From contig JAIRRU010000215.1 in the NCBI GenBank assembly GCA_031255815.1, positions 1-14,205 on the forward strand: DNA of 14,205 bases. Direction: 5' to 3'. Origin of the DNA: Treponema sp. (GTDB taxonomy: Bacteria; Spirochaetota; Spirochaetia; Treponematales; Breznakiellaceae). The notes under the pieces were generated by a model. That model was not told the DNA's origin. It searched no databases and saw nothing but the letters and a program-made list of their open reading frames with translations. Positions 6,007-14,085 of this stretch are shown here, piece by piece. The position numbers and the translations under genes were made by a program. Position 1 is the stretch's first letter. Each line of letters starts with the position of its first letter.

Positions 6007-8106
6007 TCAAGAAGCTAAACGCAGGCAGGCGGAAAGAACCTCCGCGATAATCCAGGAGGGGTTCCAGTTTGACGTGCCCCCCCGCCAGTCCTGCAAACGG
6101 TTCAACGAATCCCCGGCCTGGCTGTAGTTCGTCTGATAGTACTGTTCCCCCTGTTCCCCCGGCACGGTAAAGCCCCAGTCTCCGGGCTTTCTGCAGACCC
6201 CGTGCGTCCACGCGTCCAGGATCATCTGAGCGCAGTCCCGGTACATGGTATCCCCCCTCAGCCTGCCATACTCATCGAGTTCTACTGGTGAAAAAAACAC
6301 GTCAAGATGGTGATTCTGGACACTGACCCCCGGCCAGCCGCTTACCCGGAAACCTTCCCTTTCGCAGGGGCTTCCCGGTTTAAGCGGCGGTTCCCAAAAA
6401 TAGAGAAAGGTAAGTATCCAGTCGGCGGCTATCCCCGCCCATTCAAGGTAGCGATCCTTTCCGGTTTGACGGTGCAGTTCCATTGCGGCGATGAAGAAGT
6501 ACATCCCCGCTTCCTTGTCTTCGCAGCGGGCGTCCAGAGTGGCATAGGCGAAAGGGTACCGCATAGTTTCGGCGCTAAGCCGGTAGTACCTTTCCATTAC
6601 ATCTTCGGCATAAGAGATCCATTCGGCCTTTCCCAGGCAGGCCCCCGCTTTCGCCAGGGCGATAACGCAGGGGATGCCGGCGGAAGTTGTTTTATGCAGG
6701 GCCGGGTTCCCCTCCCGATCCCACTGGAGGGGGTATATCCCCTGGTCTGTTAAACGGGCGGGCGAGCTAAGAAAATCCATAACGGTCCGGATGAAAGTTT
6801 CCCACGCTTCAGGAACAGAACGGCCTTCTTTTTTCAGCAGCGCCATAATGTCCAGCAGATCCCCGGCGCTGCTTCCCGTCATCCTGCTTGAATAACCTTC
6901 CCTGCCGGACTGGTGGCTTATGGTTCCCCAGCGTTTCTCCTCAACGACATAGTAAGCGGAAGGCGCCCCGGAAGATCCCCGGAGGGAATTGCGGGCAAAG
7001 AAATCGGCGGCGGCCATCCCCCTTTCTATAGCCGCGGGATCCCCGGCGCGCAGGCCCTGAACCAGGTCGCACCAGGCCAGTTTCAAACATTCCCCTGTCC
7101 ACGCGTAGAGAAAATAATCCGGCCGGCCCGATATATTTCCAAAATCGTTGGCCGAACCGAAGCATAAATAACCGGCAGCTTCCCCGTCTTGGTACCAGCG
7201 GGAAACCAGGCAGTTGTGTTTCAGTTTTGCGAGTTCTTCCCGGCTCATAAGGGGCTTTGTCCGGGGGCGGTAGATCTTCCATCCTTCCCTAACCAGACTG
7301 CGGAAGCCCATCCCCTCTTTCCTGTCCGTATCCCAGGAAAGGTAATGTTTTTTCCGCCAGCTTGCCCCGGCCGCAAGGGAACTGTAGGGGTAAGGGTAGT
7401 CCCGGTGGCCGCCTTTGGCGGCGTACACCGTATCCTTTTCCCCGTTGAACATAAGGCCGCCGCTGAGGGCCGCCGCCGTATAACCGCTTTCCCCTTTCAG
7501 AAGGCCCAGGCTCCAAAAGGAATCGAAATCCCCGGCTGCGGGGGAAGGTTCCGCAAAGATACTGAAGTGCGGCCAGTCCTTCCCGGCCTTCCATTGGATA
7601 TTAAGCGCGGGTATCGGCAAACGGTGTTCCTCGGCAATGTAACCCGCGCCGGGGACGGAACCTGCTTTCGGTATAAGGCGCTCCGGATCGGCGGAAGGGT
7701 TATCGTTATAGAGACAGTGGGGGAGGGTGAATTTCGCCCCTTCAGCCCAGGGCATGGGAAAGCAGATCCCCGCCATAGCGTCGTTGATAAGGGCGCCGTG
7801 ATTTTTCCATTCGCTTTCCATGACCAGGCCCTTTTCCGGGTCAAAATGAAAACGGAGCCCTGCCTCTGCGCCGGGAAAAGCGCCGGGGATAAAGATCTCT
7901 ATATTTTCTTCCTGCCCGCGGATCTCCGCCTTACCGGTTGCCGCGTAGCAAAACTCCCAGGGCCGCCCCCGGGAAAAACTCAGCATCCCTGAAAGGGGGA
8001 AAGCGGCTATTTCAGCCGTTCCCTTTAAGAAGGCAAGGACAATCGCCGTTCCCTGGCCCCTAACTTCCAGGCTTTTACCGCCCATCGTTATACGATGCGT
8101 CATCAT
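6007..8106 (-). CDS. Uncharacterised protein, probable cytoplasmic glycosidase or lyase
   Basis: I do not recognise this 699-aa protein as any named CAZy family. The first ~260 residues look beta-rich with short strands and turns (FPLSGMLSFSRGRPWEF, ALNIQWKAGKDWPHFSIFAEPSP). Residues ~290-700 are helical and rich in aromatic and acidic residues, resembling an (alpha/alpha)6 toroid. Candidate active-site or substrate-contact patches are SHQSGREGYSSRMTGSSAGD (about 397-416), LDARCEDKEAG (about 524-534), QNHHLDVFF (about 597-605) and GDSLNRLQDWRGGTSNW (about 665-681). No signal peptide or membrane segment is seen. Upstream GGGAGG is 9 bases from ATG 8106, so I prefer that start; TTG 8109 and ATG 8103 are alternatives. 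It sits 23 bp after the GH140-like gene and 12 bp before GH78. Operon context suggests a role in the same glycan pathway; that is inference only. Confidence 0.8.
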   Translation of the reverse strand: MMTHRITMGGKSLEVRGQGTAIVLAFLKGTAEIAAFPLSGMLSFSRGRPWEFCYAATGKAEIRGQEENIEIFIPGAFPGAEAGLRFHFDPEKGLVMESEWKNHGALINDAMAGICFPMPWAEGAKFTLPHCLYNDNPSADPERLIPKAGSVPGAGYIAEEHRLPIPALNIQWKAGKDWPHFSIFAEPSPAAGDFDSFWSLGLLKGESGYTAAALSGGLMFNGEKDTVYAAKGGHRDYPYPYSSLAAGASWRKKHYLSWDTDRKEGMGFRSLVREGWKIYRPRTKPLMSREELAKLKHNCLVSRWYQDGEAAGYLCFGSANDFGNISGRPDYFLYAWTGECLKLAWCDLVQGLRAGDPAAIERGMAAADFFARNSLRGSSGAPSAYYVVEEKRWGTISHQSGREGYSSRMTGSSAGDLLDIMALLKKEGRSVPEAWETFIRTVMDFLSSPARLTDQGIYPLQWDREGNPALHKTTSAGIPCVIALAKAGACLGKAEWISYAEDVMERYYRLSAETMRYPFAYATLDARCEDKEAGMYFFIAAMELHRQTGKDRYLEWAGIAADWILTFLYFWEPPLKPGSPCEREGFRVSGWPGVSVQNHHLDVFFSPVELDEYGRLRGDTMYRDCAQMILDAWTHGVCRKPGDWGFTVPGEQGEQYYQTNYSQAGDSLNRLQDWRGGTSNWNPSWIIAEVLSACLRLAS

Positions 8107-8129
8107 CAAAAACCGCCTCCCGCAGGTGT

Positions 8130-9500
8130 TTATACGCCGCTTTGCCCGCGCCGTAAAAGGAGAACCCAGTCATTGTGCCCGGTTTTTTTCTCAGGCGGGC
8201 TGAAGGAAAAGGATCCTTCACAATCAAAAACGCCGCAATAACTGTAAATTCCGGCGGCGGGATCGAACCACCAGCCCCCGGCCTGTTTCCATTTGCTCCT
8301 GCCAAGGTTCAGCGTAAAAGTTTTACCGCTGTAGGTGTAGGCAAGAATAAAATTTTCCCCCATAAACGCGGAAACCCTTTCGTAGCCTTCCCCCCTGTCT
8401 TCGACAAGTTCCCCTGCCGCCTTTCCCCGGGAAAAGCCCACACTGTTCATGAGCGCCGCCAGGTGCCCCATCTGTCCCGAACCGGGATCGTGCAGGGCGG
8501 TTTTCCATTCGGATTTAACACCGTAGCTTCCCGGGCCGTATTCTTTTTTATAGAACTGCATAATTCCATTGTGGCCGTAGCTGTGCCCGCAGGCCCCCTC
8601 CAGCACCGACCAGTATGCGTAACGGCGGACATCGTGATCCTGCCAGTAGGGCTGCGAAGGATCGTGAAGGCCCTGGGGGATCTGCTCGTAGGAAGGCTCC
8701 CCGTCCAGCGTGGGCCGTTTTTTCCCGGCTTTATAATCCCTCTCCACATAACGCCAGTTGTCTTCCCCGAACCAGCCCTCCTTAGCGGTATTGTCATCCC
8801 ACTCTTTAAGGGATCTCTGATCGTAACGCCGGTGCCCGGACTGGAACATGTTGAAATCCAGCCAGGGCGAATCGGCAAACCAGAAACTGGATGAGGTTCT
8901 GCCGAAGGGGTGGTAACCGATCAGCTGATCCGGGGCCAAACGCTTAAGGGTGTTTCCCAGAACATCCCATACATCCCCGCCTGTGTCTCCGCGGATATCC
9001 CCGCCCAGAATCCAAACGATGTTCTTCCGCTTTCCCCAGCGCTCCGCCAGGAAAGCGGCGTATGGCGCGGCTTTTTCAGCCGTCAGGAGCTTTTGTTTTA
9101 CCATGGAACCCCAGGCCGGCAAAAGGCCCATGTAAAGGCCCAGTTCCCCGGCCTTGTCCAGCACCGCGTCCGCGTAGCGCCAGAATTCCCCCTCTTTGTC
9201 AGGACAGGCAAAATCGTTGTTCCGCAGGGCGCAGGAAAGCTGGTTGTTGTTCAGGGGGAGGCTGCTGTCTCCGGAATCGGCCTTTGGCAGGGTATGGATC
9301 AGGGTGGCCTGAATTACCGTGAACCCCTTATCCCGGCGGTTTCTGAGATAGAGCCCGGTTTCCTCAAAAGTCAAATTCTGAAACAGCAGCCATGCGGTAT
9401 CGCCCAGCCAGAAAAACGGCCGCTCCCCGTTGGCCAGATAACGCCCGTTTTCCTGTACCCTTAAAGGGCCGTAGTCCCAAGGTTTTTCCGTGTTCGTCAT
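8130..9500 (-). CDS. GH140/apiosidase-like glycoside hydrolase (DUF4038 plus C-terminal Collagen_bind_2-type domain)
   Basis: This 456-aa protein has the DUF4038 TIM-barrel signature. It begins with NGRYLANGERPFFWLGDTAWLLF (about 18-40), followed by FTVIQATLI, NIVWILGGDIRGDTGG (160-175) and LDGEPSYEQIP (265-275). By analogy with characterised GH140 apiosidase, Asp168 in GGD and Glu268 in DGEPSYE are the likely catalytic pair. The last ~90 residues, with WWFDPAAGIYS and SFSPPEKKTGHNDWVLLL, match the small beta domain (Pfam 'collagen-binding of a collagenase') usually attached to DUF4038; this does not imply collagen binding. No signal peptide is visible, whereas the characterised Bacteroides enzyme is exported. 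Its ATG overlaps the TGA of the GH39-like gene by 4 bp (ATGA), implying translational coupling. Apiose specificity is not proven by sequence. Confidence 0.85.
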   Translation of the reverse strand: MTNTEKPWDYGPLRVQENGRYLANGERPFFWLGDTAWLLFQNLTFEETGLYLRNRRDKGFTVIQATLIHTLPKADSGDSSLPLNNNQLSCALRNNDFACPDKEGEFWRYADAVLDKAGELGLYMGLLPAWGSMVKQKLLTAEKAAPYAAFLAERWGKRKNIVWILGGDIRGDTGGDVWDVLGNTLKRLAPDQLIGYHPFGRTSSSFWFADSPWLDFNMFQSGHRRYDQRSLKEWDDNTAKEGWFGEDNWRYVERDYKAGKKRPTLDGEPSYEQIPQGLHDPSQPYWQDHDVRRYAYWSVLEGACGHSYGHNGIMQFYKKEYGPGSYGVKSEWKTALHDPGSGQMGHLAALMNSVGFSRGKAAGELVEDRGEGYERVSAFMGENFILAYTYSGKTFTLNLGRSKWKQAGGWWFDPAAGIYSYCGVFDCEGSFSFSPPEKKTGHNDWVLLLRRGQSGV

Positions 9501-11170
9501 TTTTCTCCCCCAGCCTTCTCAAACACGAGCAAAGAGATACTGTGCGAAGGCATTTCAAAATCGTGCGCGATAACCCCGTCTTTAACGTCTATCAGTTTAT
9601 TCTCCAAACATTCAAGGGAATCCCGGCTTTTTATCTTCTCATACTGTTTTTTGTCCGGATACCAGGGCTTTCCCTGTCTTTCCCATTCCCCGTAGGGATT
9701 GGAATGATCCCTGTCGATCCGGTAATGCGTAAGAGAAAAACTGCCGGAACCCCCTGCCCCCGAAACGGTTAGGCGGATGCGGTTGGAGGAGTTGATGTCC
9801 CGGTCGTCATGGTGGCTGTAGATAAACACCTGAATTTCCCCGTTTTCCCCCCGCGCGCCGAAACCGGAAACATCGGCGCGCCGTTCATCCCCGTCGAAGA
9901 TCGTGATATTGTTTCTACCCTCGGCGTAAGGTTCAGCCTCTTCCGGCGGCAGCGCGCCGGAACTGGAAAAGCCCAGTTCCTCCCGGCCGAGTTTTCCGAA
10001 TATGGCAAAGAGATTGAAAATAGCCTTGTTGATACCCATCGTCGAGAAGGTCCGCGTCCCTTCGAAACATCGTTCGGCCGGGAAAAGGAATGCCCAGGCC
10101 AGGGGTTTTATACTTACGCCGTATTCTTTCGCAAGGGAACCGATTTTACAATAGGCAGCCGCCGTATAAGTCGCGTAATACTCCGTGTTACGGAAGATAA
10201 GGTTACTGTTGTCGTAGTAACCCCCCGCGGCCCAGCCATCGGGATCGGCCTCGGAAAGAACCACCTCGCGGCCGGAAAAACCGCTTTTCACGATATCGTC
10301 AAGACCGAACCGTATGTGCCTGATCAAATTTGAAACGGAAGGGGCCTCTTTTTCCGCCTTCACCGTAAAGCGGAAACCGCCCCCCTTGGCATGGTAGGAA
10401 ATAAAGTCAAGACGGGTTCCCGCCGCGCCGGAGTAAAAGTTTACCCCGCTTTTACAGTGTTGCAGAAAATAGCTAAAAAACTCGGAGGCAAGACGGCCCC
10501 GGATAAGCGTGGTAACTCCGGGGCCGCCCAAACGAAGATCCGGTCCCGCCGCGTGTAAGGCGTGTTCCGTATAATCAAATAATTTGCAATATTCGGCAAC
10601 GGAACCCCGCCAGTAGGAAATGTCAGGTTCATTCCAAAGCTCGAAATACCAGGTCTCAACCTGTTCTTTTCCGTATTTATCGGTAAGGTGGCGCCCGAGG
10701 GCTTCTATCAGCGCGTGCCACTTGCCATAGTCTTTTGGCGGGCAGCTCCAGCCGTCTTGCATGTAGCGTCTTGCGGCCTGTTTTTCTTCGATTTTGGGCA
10801 GATAAGACGTGTCAACAAGATCCATGGGCATAAACCCAAGTTCAAGGAAAGGCTTGTTCCCCGTCTCCAGGTATGAGTCAACGATTTTGTCGTATATTTC
10901 GAAATTGTAAACAGGATTGCCGTCCGCGTCTTCGGTATATATATTGGTCGAACCGTATTTTGGAACACCGTTACAGTTGCCCGTGTTGAACATAAAATGG
11001 GATCTGATGTAATAGGCTTCGTGTTCCAGTTCCCCGAATTTCCGCAGAAGCTCCAGCCCTTCGGGCGTATAGGCGAAATTACATTCATCAAACCCGATGT
11101 ACCGCCAATAATGTTCCAACACGCCCCGGCTTTTCCCGGCATCAACCTGTATCTCTATATCCTTCTTCAT
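9497..11170 (-). CDS. GH39-like glycoside hydrolase (beta-xylosidase/alpha-L-iduronidase clan GH-A)
   Basis: This 557-aa retaining glycosidase of the GH39 type has an N-terminal TIM barrel with YFELWNEPDISYW (175-187), where Glu181 is the acid/base. It also has REVVLSEADPDGWA (301-314), with Glu307 the probable nucleophile. Other family-like blocks are EAYYIRSHFMFNTG, KPFLELGFMP and LDFISYHAKGG (254-264). A beta-sandwich follows from about residue 430 (VFIYSHHDD, SHSISLLVFEK). Start ATG 11170 was chosen because AAGGGG precedes it by 8 bases and the protein begins MKKDIEIQVDAGKSRG; the frame stays open 43 codons further, but that stretch is hairpin repeat and permease remnant. No signal peptide, so cytoplasmic. 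Specificity (xylose, iduronate or another sugar) cannot be set from sequence. It overlaps the next gene by 4 bp. Confidence 0.85.
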   Translation of the reverse strand: MKKDIEIQVDAGKSRGVLEHYWRYIGFDECNFAYTPEGLELLRKFGELEHEAYYIRSHFMFNTGNCNGVPKYGSTNIYTEDADGNPVYNFEIYDKIVDSYLETGNKPFLELGFMPMDLVDTSYLPKIEEKQAARRYMQDGWSCPPKDYGKWHALIEALGRHLTDKYGKEQVETWYFELWNEPDISYWRGSVAEYCKLFDYTEHALHAAGPDLRLGGPGVTTLIRGRLASEFFSYFLQHCKSGVNFYSGAAGTRLDFISYHAKGGGFRFTVKAEKEAPSVSNLIRHIRFGLDDIVKSGFSGREVVLSEADPDGWAAGGYYDNSNLIFRNTEYYATYTAAAYCKIGSLAKEYGVSIKPLAWAFLFPAERCFEGTRTFSTMGINKAIFNLFAIFGKLGREELGFSSSGALPPEEAEPYAEGRNNITIFDGDERRADVSGFGARGENGEIQVFIYSHHDDRDINSSNRIRLTVSGAGGSGSFSLTHYRIDRDHSNPYGEWERQGKPWYPDKKQYEKIKSRDSLECLENKLIDVKDGVIAHDFEMPSHSISLLVFEKAGGEK

Positions 11171-11175
11171 CGCTT

Positions 11176-11217
11176 CTACCCCTTGAGAGAACCTATCATA
11201 AGCCCGCCGGCCCGCGC
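11176..11217 (-). pseudogene. Orphan C-terminus of an ABC sugar permease (remnant)
   Basis: On the minus strand the codons ending at TAG (11176-11178) read GGLMIGSLKG-stop, the standard end of CUT1 permeases of this class. The intact permease in this window ends RGMMIGSLKE-stop, and 17 of 18 bases match (11182-11199 against 13204-13221). An in-frame TAG at 11218-11220 leaves only 13 sense codons, so this is no gene by itself. Its last codons, AAG GGG, provide the Shine-Dalgarno of the GH39-like gene, whose ATG is 5 bases beyond the stop. This may explain why it was kept. Confidence 0.7.
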
Positions 11218-11230
11218 CTAGCCCGGAGAT

Positions 11231-11302
11231 CCCGCAAAATGCCTGTCCTGCGGGGCATTTTGCGGGGCTTGTCCGGCAAGCGGCCAGGTTGTTGGACAAG
11301 CC
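11231..11302. repeat. Double-hairpin intercistronic repeat, copy A (after the binding-protein gene)
   Basis: Two adjacent perfect inverted repeats are present. One has arms GGCTTGTCC (11266-11274) and GGACAAGCC (11294-11302) with a 19-base loop. The other has 13-bp arms CCCGCAAAATGCC (11231-11243) and GGCATTTTGCGGG (11254-11266) with a 10-base loop; the two share base 11266. No T-run follows on either strand, so a simple rho-independent terminator is unlikely. It begins 16 bp after the binding-protein stop and is related to copy B at 13139-13194. Confidence 0.75.
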
Positions 11303-11318
11303 TGCTGTTCTTCCGTTT

Positions 11319-13028
11319 TTACTTCATGTACTTTTGGTAAATAGCAACAAGATCTCTGGAACCCATTCTGTCAAGCTCGGCAAGATACGCGTTCCAGGCG
11401 GCGTCACTGTTTATGTCCCGCACTCCGGTAACAAATTCAGCAATAGCCTGCTCCTTAAAGGGGTTTAGAACAGCATTGATATCCGCCATCCGTTTGTTAT
11501 CCGCGTCATCCAGCGCGGTGGGAGGGATAAAGTACCGATCGGGGATAGCGTTGGCCGTATCGCCGCTGGACCAGGGAATCAAAGCGCCCAGAAGAAAGCT
11601 GGGATTTTTGAACGCCGCCTCATGGAGGCTCTTGTCGCCCGTGGCAAGCCATTTGTTAATAGTGTCTATATCCTGGGCCTGCTCGCCATACCTGTTTCTT
11701 TTGTTCATCAGCATTGGATTCTGGACATACCAAAGGCTGTTGGCCGCCATCGAGGTCTCGGCTAACAAGCGTTTGTAAAGAGCGGGTTTTCCGTCAAGGC
11801 CGAGGGCCCCCGGATCCGGTTCGGTCCAGGATACTCCCTTGTTGTGCTTGCCGTTTAGAAGCATCTCCAGATTCAGCATATAGTCAAACAACGCTACTGC
11901 CAACTCCGGATCTTTGCATTTATCGGTGATAAACCAGCTGGGCTGAAGTATGCCCCAGGGATCCCGGTTTGTCGCCCAATGCCGCCCGCCCGGGCCGTTC
12001 ATGGGGTACAGAACGAACATTTCAGGCCAGCGCGGGTCGGTAGTGCCGACAACGTCGTGGGAGTAGCTGCTCAGCATAACACCCGCCACGGGAGCCGGGT
12101 TTTTGACCAATGATTTTAACTGATCGCTCGTCAGGGTAAACGCGTCTTCCTTGATAAGTTTTTCCCGGTAAAGCCCCGCCATATATTTAAGGGCATCCCG
12201 GTATTCATTTAAGCGGTACTGTTCGGTAACTTTCCCGTCGTACAGGGCGAGCCCGAAATTGGAAGTATCATAGACAAAGGGCATAAAGGATTTGGCGAAA
12301 AAAGCCGTGGCAAGACGGATGTCGCGGAACACGAGAGGCACCTCGTCGTTTTGGTCCCCGTTCCCGTTTACGTCATTATCCCGAATCCAGCGGAGATAAG
12401 CGGTAAATTCATCCAGAGTGGCGGGAACTTTGCGGTTGTTGTCCCGCACCCAGGGCATATAGTACCAACCCCGGCCCCGGATGTACATTTCCCATACAGC
12501 GTCGTCTACCCTGGGCAGAGAGTAAAGTTTCCCGTCAGAACTGCGGAGTTTTTGATTAAGCGCGGGATATTCCTCAAAGGCCAGGGCGATATTCGGATAA
12601 CTCAAGGGATTGTAAGCGTCCAGGGGAACAAAGATTCCCTCAGAGGCCCAGTAACACATATCATTGTAGGGGAGGCTCCGATCGTTAATGATATCAGGAT
12701 AATCCCCCGAAGCCAGAAGCAGATTCCTCCGCTGGCTTTGTTCCGCGCTTGATACGGCGATGAATTCAAGCTTGACGCCCGTAGCGTCCACCACTTCCCT
12801 GGTATAAGAGTTATCCTTGTAATCGTAGCTGGTGATCATCTGATTGGAGCCGAGGGGTATAAACATGGTAAAAGTGGTCCTGCCGTCGGTAACGAAAGGA
12901 ACGCTTGTGTACTTCTTGCCGGATTCCGCTGCCGCCGCGGATGCCGGCGCGCCGCCCTGGGATCTTCCGCCCGCGAAAACAGACGCTGCCATCAAAGCAA
13001 CAAACAAAAAAGCAATCATCTTTTTCAT
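11319..13028 (-). CDS. ABC transporter extracellular solute-binding protein (CUT1, LipO/AlgQ-like)
   Basis: This 569-aa periplasmic sugar- or oligosaccharide-binding protein should deliver substrate to the two permeases encoded upstream. Residues 1-19 (MKKMIAFLFVALMAASVFA) form a signal peptide with VFA before GG. No lipobox Cys is present, so cleavage by signal peptidase I is likely rather than lipoprotein anchoring. A Gly/Ser/Ala linker follows (20-38). Typical blocks are ASGDYPDII (106-114), GIFVPLDAY (131-139), DGKLYSLPR (165-173) and a calcium-loop-like DNDVNGNGDQNDE (217-229), as seen in large oligosaccharide-binding proteins such as AlgQ. A strong AAGGAGAG (13035-13042) lies 6 bases before ATG 13028. 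The gene is bracketed by hairpin repeats, and a possible promoter lies just upstream, consistent with a need for more binding protein than permease. Confidence 0.93.
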   Translation of the reverse strand: MKKMIAFLFVALMAASVFAGGRSQGGAPASAAAAESGKKYTSVPFVTDGRTTFTMFIPLGSNQMITSYDYKDNSYTREVVDATGVKLEFIAVSSAEQSQRRNLLLASGDYPDIINDRSLPYNDMCYWASEGIFVPLDAYNPLSYPNIALAFEEYPALNQKLRSSDGKLYSLPRVDDAVWEMYIRGRGWYYMPWVRDNNRKVPATLDEFTAYLRWIRDNDVNGNGDQNDEVPLVFRDIRLATAFFAKSFMPFVYDTSNFGLALYDGKVTEQYRLNEYRDALKYMAGLYREKLIKEDAFTLTSDQLKSLVKNPAPVAGVMLSSYSHDVVGTTDPRWPEMFVLYPMNGPGGRHWATNRDPWGILQPSWFITDKCKDPELAVALFDYMLNLEMLLNGKHNKGVSWTEPDPGALGLDGKPALYKRLLAETSMAANSLWYVQNPMLMNKRNRYGEQAQDIDTINKWLATGDKSLHEAAFKNPSFLLGALIPWSSGDTANAIPDRYFIPPTALDDADNKRMADINAVLNPFKEQAIAEFVTGVRDINSDAAWNAYLAELDRMGSRDLVAIYQKYMK

Positions 13029-13197: not shown

Positions 13198-14085
13198 TCA
13201 TTCCTTGAGCGAACCTATCATCATTCCCCTGATAAAATACTGCTGAATAAAAGGATAGAGAATCATCATGGGCAATGCCCCGACGACCAGTACCGCATAG
13301 CGGAGCTGCTGAAAGAGTTCCTGCAGCGCCGCCATACCGCCGGGATCCATTATGGCTACCATTTCCGGGGGCACCTGGGCGATAAAAAGTATGTCCCGAA
13401 GCACCATCTGGAAGTTAAAAGTGCCGGGCTTGGTAAGATACATCATGCCGGAAAAATAGCTGTTCCAGATTCCCACCGCGTTAAAGAGGACCATCACCGC
13501 GATAACCGGCGCGGCCAGCGGTAAAGCAATAGTAAAAAAGAAACGCACATCCCCGCAGCCGTCTATGTGGGCGGCGTCTAAAATACCGGCGGGCAGGCTG
13601 GTTTGAAAATAAGATTTGACAATGATCATGTTGTAGCAGGAAAACCCCGCCCCTACTACCAAGGCCCAGCGGCTTCCCACCAGGTGCAGGTTCCGCATAA
13701 GCAGATAACTGGGAATGATGCCGCCTGAAAAAAACATGGTTATAACAAAGTATGTCAAGAAAAATTTGCGATCCGGTATGTCCCTGCGGGAAAGGGGATA
13801 GGCGCATAAAAGGATGAGGGATACTGAGACCGTGGTTCCCCCGGCCACGTAAAAAATAGAATTCAGAAATCCTGAACGGATGAGACTGTGATTAAACACG
13901 GCCTTATAAGACGCCAGACTGAATTCGACAGGCCAAAGCAGCACCTTGCCGACAGCAATCGCTTCAGGCGAACTAAACGAGCAGGAAACCACATAGATAA
14001 GGGGATACGCCACCGAAAACCCGGCGATAGCGAGAAAGAGAAAACAGCAAATCTGGTACGATATGTCCGGAGCTGAAAGTTTCAT
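13198..14085 (-). CDS. CUT1 ABC transporter permease (YtcP/LplC-like)
   Basis: This 295-aa inner-membrane permease has about six hydrophobic segments (for example residues 11-34, 74-97, 108-130, 140-157, 188-207, 264-284). The cytoplasmic EAA loop LPAGILDAAHIDGCGDVRFF (164-183), followed by FTIALPLAAP, couples to the ATPase; here it begins DAA rather than EAA, a conservative change. It ends FIRGMMIGSLKE, the usual end of this subfamily. The ATG overlaps the stop of the preceding permease by one base (TAATG), and GGGAGGGG lies upstream inside that gene, so the two are translationally coupled. Its partner is the LplB-like permease entering from the right edge, and the binding protein is the next gene. 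No ATPase is in view; such systems often share a MsmX-type ATPase encoded elsewhere. Confidence 0.93.
   Translation of the reverse strand: MKLSAPDISYQICCFLFLAIAGFSVAYPLIYVVSCSFSSPEAIAVGKVLLWPVEFSLASYKAVFNHSLIRSGFLNSIFYVAGGTTVSVSLILLCAYPLSRRDIPDRKFFLTYFVITMFFSGGIIPSYLLMRNLHLVGSRWALVVGAGFSCYNMIIVKSYFQTSLPAGILDAAHIDGCGDVRFFFTIALPLAAPVIAVMVLFNAVGIWNSYFSGMMYLTKPGTFNFQMVLRDILFIAQVPPEMVAIMDPGGMAALQELFQQLRYAVLVVGALPMMILYPFIQQYFIRGMMIGSLKE

Follow-up and report, generated by a model that had tools for sequence, protein, structure and literature searches.

An orphan permease 3' end beside a truncated MITE-like repeat upstream of a GH39 gene of Treponema sp., an apparent relic of gene-cluster reshuffling

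In Buchnera, spacers with the Shine-Dalgarno sequences of retained genes also preserve what is left of inactivated ones, as described in the available part of PMC3164680. Short repeats of the REP, REPIN and MITE types form a second described system, and the element reported here is likewise short, non-coding, palindromic and dispersed, as far as these repeats are treated in the available parts of PMC3116915 and PMC12306157. No account of the element was found in the literature on Treponema and termite species and on repeats, the topics to which the search was confined. The accessible part of PMC13067680 contains no such repeat, and the spirochaetes treated in that of PMC12306157 are others only.

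The window, which is the whole stretch of DNA that was analysed, comprises 14,205 nucleotides of a contig of Treponema sp. (JAIRRU010000215.1). The order of its features on the minus strand is permease, repeat B, solute-binding protein gene, repeat A, orphan permease tail and GH39 gene, with the following coordinates:

13198..14085, minus strand: intact ABC permease gene (Pfam BPD_transp_1), with the C-terminus RGMMIGSLKE-stop and 21 orthologues of 63-76% identity
13092..13194, minus strand: repeat B, a full-length three-hairpin MITE-like element identified by alignment and by a match of 97 bits to covariance model R1 over its positions 1-109 (repeat B is among the 24 copies used to build R1, and repeat A was left out of the model)
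11319..13028, minus strand: solute-binding protein gene (Pfam SBP_bac_1); 17 of the 21 orthologous loci have a homologue behind the permease
11234..11303, minus strand: repeat A, a truncated copy with hairpins I and II only (R1 match 11302-11219, 38.9 bits)
11206..11233, minus strand: G+C-rich junction of 28 nt, seen in the sequence, holding the in-frame stop TAG at 11220-11218
11176..11205, minus strand: orphan permease 3' end, GLMIGSLKG-stop, recognised from the sequence, from patterns in related genomes and from a comparison of tails
11179..11184, minus strand: AAGGGG, the last two codons of the orphan tail; by sequence and duplex energy, no stretch ahead of the GH39 ATG resembles a Shine-Dalgarno sequence more closely
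9497..11170, minus strand: GH39 glycoside hydrolase gene (Pfam Glyco_hydro_39, E 2e-53)

Beyond GH39, the same strand carries an apiosidase-like gene, a gene with no Pfam family, a rhamnosidase gene and a gene for a LacI-type regulator, in that order. The second of these, at 6007-8109 between the apiosidase-like and rhamnosidase genes, encodes 700 amino acids and gave no Pfam match at E 0.001.

The orphan tail reads GGC GGG CTT ATG ATA GGT TCT CTC AAG GGG TAG (GGLMIGSLKG-stop; 11208-11176, minus strand), and its stop is separated from the GH39 ATG at 11170 by a gap of 5 nt. An earlier, sequence-only reading of this DNA had matched the tail to the end of the intact permease at 17 of 18 bases. 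The likeness was confirmed on recounting, since the core of the orphan, ATGATAGGTTCTCTCAAGG (11199-11181), shares 18 of its 19 bases with the permease end (13221-13203), and a blastn comparison within the window gave E = 0.002 for this match. The same reading was also correct in that the tail is cut off: an in-frame TAG stands upstream of it at 11220-11218 on the minus strand, and the tail adjoins the truncated hairpin repeat A, from which it is separated by 28 nt. When permease similarity was sought upstream of the orphan, with the 28-nt junction included, the best match covered the motif alone, and the orphan is therefore a fragment and not a gene.

Comparisons were made with 195 related genomes from the family to which G003 belongs, G003 being the genome that contains locus L032 (Treponema sp.). 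We take G003 to be a termite-gut strain, and the bacterium of the window is probably a gut spirochaete. The strict DNA pattern GGNNTNATGATAGGTTCNCTNAARG was found in four of the 195 genomes, with one match in each, and all four matches are permease 3' ends. A degenerate signature, GGNNTNATGATHGGNNSNNTNAARGRNTRR, which represents the permease C-terminal motif and its stop, matched in 64 of the 195 genomes, and its reversed control matched in none. The orphan fits the C-terminal form G-x-M-I-G-S/A-x-K-G/E plus stop that is seen at permease ends and, judged from these patterns, it is a genuine permease remnant.

Tails were then compared using 100 sequences fetched among the degenerate-signature matches listed, plus 30 loci. 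Counting the two of the window, this gave 150 tails with differing contexts: 138 were preceded by 150 or more open codons, 5 lay too close to a sequence edge and 7 were cut short. The window orphan is the shortest of these seven, its motif being preceded by 4 open codons. Permease decay seems to occur in the group, with the window orphan as its extreme, since the six other cut-short tails (L279, L264, L251, L268, L227 and L311) keep permease similarity upstream. These six are apparently truncated, frameshifted or internally deleted genes, assembly errors being possible, and three of them sit at most 460 bases from a contig end. In L279, the permease gene has seemingly lost some 90 codons from its interior.

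Repeats A and B belong to one family of elements of about 109 bp with three hairpins, which was seen in the window and in loci L106-L134 and L337-L344. Of 30 predicted pairs in the stems, 8 had both sides changed in at least one of the 24 aligned copies. The R1 search, carried out on the 195 genomes using Infernal with stricter filters, detected the element in 156 of them, many with at least 19 copies. Among the copies that could be placed, 29 of 30 lay outside long ORFs, and their orientation showed no clear preference. Repeat B starts 3 bp behind the permease stop. In repeat A, 42 model positions of R1 corresponding to hairpin III are replaced by 8 bases. Of 49 rows from the fetched loci, six were by inspection reverse-strand reads; the other 43 were forward-read copies having hairpins I and II, and all of them kept hairpin III. 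These loci had largely been picked as good matches, a choice that favours whole copies. Repeat A could also be a member of a two-hairpin subfamily in the window's own genome.

Among 24 copies, all have A-N-T as their right flank and 23 have it as their left flank. Left and right flanking 3-mers were identical in 16 of the 24, where 2000 shuffles gave 9.7 on average and 18 at most, which makes this identity suggestive only. In addition, one genome holds two insertion sequences of about 890 bp (L372, ~1070-1961, and L366, ~1412-2305) with AGACTTGTT ends around DDE_Tnp_1 matches and ATT on both sides, whose transposase reads in two overlapping frames. They may be of the IS5 type, which has 3-bp A-N-T target sites. 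The left end of the element resembles the AGACTTGTT of these insertion sequences, and the right end is alike at 9 of 10 bases. Both are candidate partners or parents of the element, which we call MITE-like because of its suggestive flanks and of ends that resemble theirs, and which is probably mobile. No pair of such ends about 890 bp apart was present at the DUF4096 transposase loci, whereas two loci from DDE_Tnp_1 had it. An Rfam search of the window, repeats included, gave no match at gathering scores. A search for a 16-base repeat pattern in viral contigs yielded 14 loci resembling repeat B over 16-20 bases only, and these were set aside.

The permease body missing upstream of the tail, the truncated repeat A and the order of permease and then binding-protein gene are direct observations on this locus. 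We consider it likely that a deletion removed the permease body and hairpin III of repeat A and spared the last ten codons and the stop. The starting state would have been a permease directly before GH39 with repeat A beside that permease. One deletion, or one repeat-linked recombination, would have run from inside repeat A into the last codons of the permease, leaving as its product the present junction of repeat A without hairpin III, 28 nt, the ten-codon tail and GH39. The breakpoint is not clean, since the 28-nt junction separates repeat A from the tail, and the homology of the orphan to permeases is limited to ten codons. The link between permease loss and the repeat is drawn from the window locus, since five of the six stretches fetched around the other decayed permeases contained no element nearby, and one (L335) had an element about 3 kb away. 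A rearrangement scar, as proposed in the sequence-only reading, is the best reading of this truncated gene end by a truncated repeat; the cassette which that reading had placed between two copies of the tail is disfavoured.

The deletion implies an ancestor in which GH39 came directly behind the permease whose tail remains, and we infer this arrangement because permeases in relatives are closely followed by enzyme genes. Among nine genes downstream of such permeases that were tested by Pfam, six belonged to enzyme families (three URO-D-like, one aldose 1-epimerase, one GH109-type and one alpha-L-fucosidase), one was a permease and two had no match. In one relative, L198, the sequence CTCAAGGGGTAA-CAAAA-ATG precedes the aldose 1-epimerase gene, so that a permease-enzyme junction with the same geometry of tail, stop, 5 nt and ATG does exist, which agrees in part with the sequence-only reading. 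The permease directly before GH39 itself for which that reading proposed to search relatives was not found: the permease-tail motif was upstream of GH39 in none of 80 genome loci (76 with more than 60 bases upstream) and none of six family loci, and the ancestral permease-GH39 junction was not seen among them. Five of the 80 loci had less than 300 bases upstream, and 14 had no ORF of 80 amino acids ending within 400 bases. Of the 61 ORFs upstream of GH39, 44 were included in a Pfam scan, in which 25 of 63 families are listed.

In a tree of 56 proteins, the window GH39 groups with P0001, to which it is 86% identical, and with P0002 (100/98). This group next joins a Bacillota sequence, the nearest named row (96/91), and six treponeme or related proteins form a clade of their own (100/99), to which the window protein does not belong. 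The window GH39 may thus have been acquired separately, by horizontal transfer, of which the tree alone is no proof. A newcomer GH39 would suit an account in which no deletion took place in situ and the tail arrived with GH39, recombination between two elements having brought the operon of the permease and binding protein next to one with GH39 and a permease tail of its own. The dispersal of the element in 156 of 195 relatives, many at 19 copies or more, would have offered the opportunity. However, plain recombination between two complete elements leaves a complete one, and repeat A has no hairpin III, so this account needs a further deletion; we find it unlikely.

The order of permease and binding-protein gene bears on the cassette, that is, on the proposal of a block, made up of repeat B, the binding-protein gene and repeat A, whose insertion between the permease and GH39 duplicated the permease tail. 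A homologue of the binding protein is encoded directly behind the orthologous permease in 17 of 21 loci, with gaps of about 41-115 bp. The remaining four have no such homologue within 1.5 kb downstream: a URO-D-like gene is found in L192 and L145, an ORF of 132 amino acids without Pfam match in L190, and no ORF of 90 amino acids starting within 60 bases in L159 (longer stretch L189). Since permease followed by binding-protein gene is the usual order, an inserted block is disfavoured, and the adjacency that the sequence-only reading explained by insertion is the normal one. The extra piece in the window's permease/binding-protein gap is, as judged from its match to the repeat family, element B. 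A search for the element at 20 orthologous permease loci gave two clear copies, both away from the gap (L195 and L150). The presence of an element in this gap is perhaps not unique to the window, because L150 also gave a weak match of 21.5 bits directly after the permease. Searching plasmids with the window's binding protein gave 78 records, all below 60% identity, and a scan of viral contigs with the window's permease gave no relative. In G003, 90 matches to the window's binding protein were obtained (L095, L098, L101 and L103), some proteins matching more than once, and its set of transporters of the binding-protein type is very large.

Two similar tails, alike at 18 of 19 bases, do flank the block, which is bounded by two copies of one element, and the SLK core of the orphan is commoner in orthologues of the window permease: in 20 tails with the MIGSLK core the last residue was E in 15 and G in 5. 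However, the orphan terminates in SLKG-TAG, the intact permease has SLKE-TGA, and SLKE-stop is the ending in every one of the latter's 21 orthologues. Over 30 nt the orphan shares 22 bases with the window permease; of 148 other tails, eight share 24 with it, three of these eight being SLKE tails. Moreover, when the 20 MIGSLK tails are compared two by two, 4.7% of the pairs have 18 or more of the 19 core bases in common. The likeness of 18 in 19 needs no duplication, since that proportion of MIGSLK pairs is as alike and 8 of 148 tails match better. The claim that the paired tails arose by duplication is consequently doubtful, and excision between them, two imperfect repeats of 19 bp, finds no support in these data. 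On these grounds insertion of the cassette appears improbable. The parentage of the orphan is ambivalent, because its core is like that of the SLKE orthologues and its last residue like that of the more distant permeases, 22 of 23 of which end KG-stop; its parent was possibly a permease other than the intact neighbour.

Two further explanations deny that the tail descends from a permease. It might be a regulatory leader peptide (MIGSLKG) or a translation-coupling uORF that merely resembles a permease end, and its seven codons from ATG to stop, ending 5 nt before the GH39 start, have a fitting layout. However, the four strict matches elsewhere are all permease ends, and the motif was found before GH39 in none of the 80 genome and six family loci, which disfavours a conserved uORF; we give very little credence to the explanation as a whole. 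A chance resemblance, for which it can be said that the homology spans just ten codons, is ruled out for practical purposes by the 64 genomes with the true signature against none of 195 with its reversed control.

The tail may now assist the translation start of GH39. The AAGGGG of its last two codons is a putative Shine-Dalgarno sequence of GH39, a role that is plausible but weak. The duplex of the GH39 leader with the anti-Shine-Dalgarno sequence has -8.3 kcal/mol, a value as low being reached by 25% of shuffles, and this pairing is the weakest among the six window genes tested; for the leader of the apiosidase-like gene, 49% of shuffles pair as well. An artificial GH39 leader without the tail gave -5.5. 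It is plausible that the orphan tail was kept for this putative ribosome-binding use by GH39. More tentatively, and with considerable doubt, a MITE-linked deletion may have eaten the permease from its 5' side until selection stopped it at the final codons, which were serving as the translation start signal of GH39. If so, the C-terminus of a dead gene would have been domesticated as a ribosome-binding site, and a MITE would be reshaping sugar-use operons in this spirochaete family.

The orphan tail looks like an ordinary but unusually clean relic of gene-cluster reshuffling. Its ten codons are the trace of an operon rearrangement, and they suggest that GH39 has come to have another upstream neighbour. 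The repeat family is a more useful by-product than the scar of the tail itself: the element, in 156 of 195 genomes, and its candidate parent insertion sequences, in one genome, provide a handle on a possible reshuffling of the many transporters and hydrolases of these spirochaetes.

When the locus is compared with known systems, the insertion sequences L372 and L366 share with the IS5 type the DDE_Tnp_1 transposase, the AGACTTGTT ends and the ATT on both sides. The differences are that the right end of the element departs from that of the insertion sequences at 1 of 10 bases and that their transposase reading is two-framed. From the REP, REPIN and MITE-type repeats, the element is set apart by its three hairpins in about 109 bp and by ends that resemble those of two insertion sequences of about 890 bp, neither of which is mentioned in the available parts of PMC3116915 and PMC12306157. 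Finally, the likeness to the decaying pseudogenes of Buchnera lies in the remains of a dead gene in a spacer near a Shine-Dalgarno sequence, and the window goes beyond what the available part of PMC3164680 describes in that the candidate Shine-Dalgarno sequence is formed by the final codons of the dead gene itself and in that the break adjoins a probably mobile repeat.
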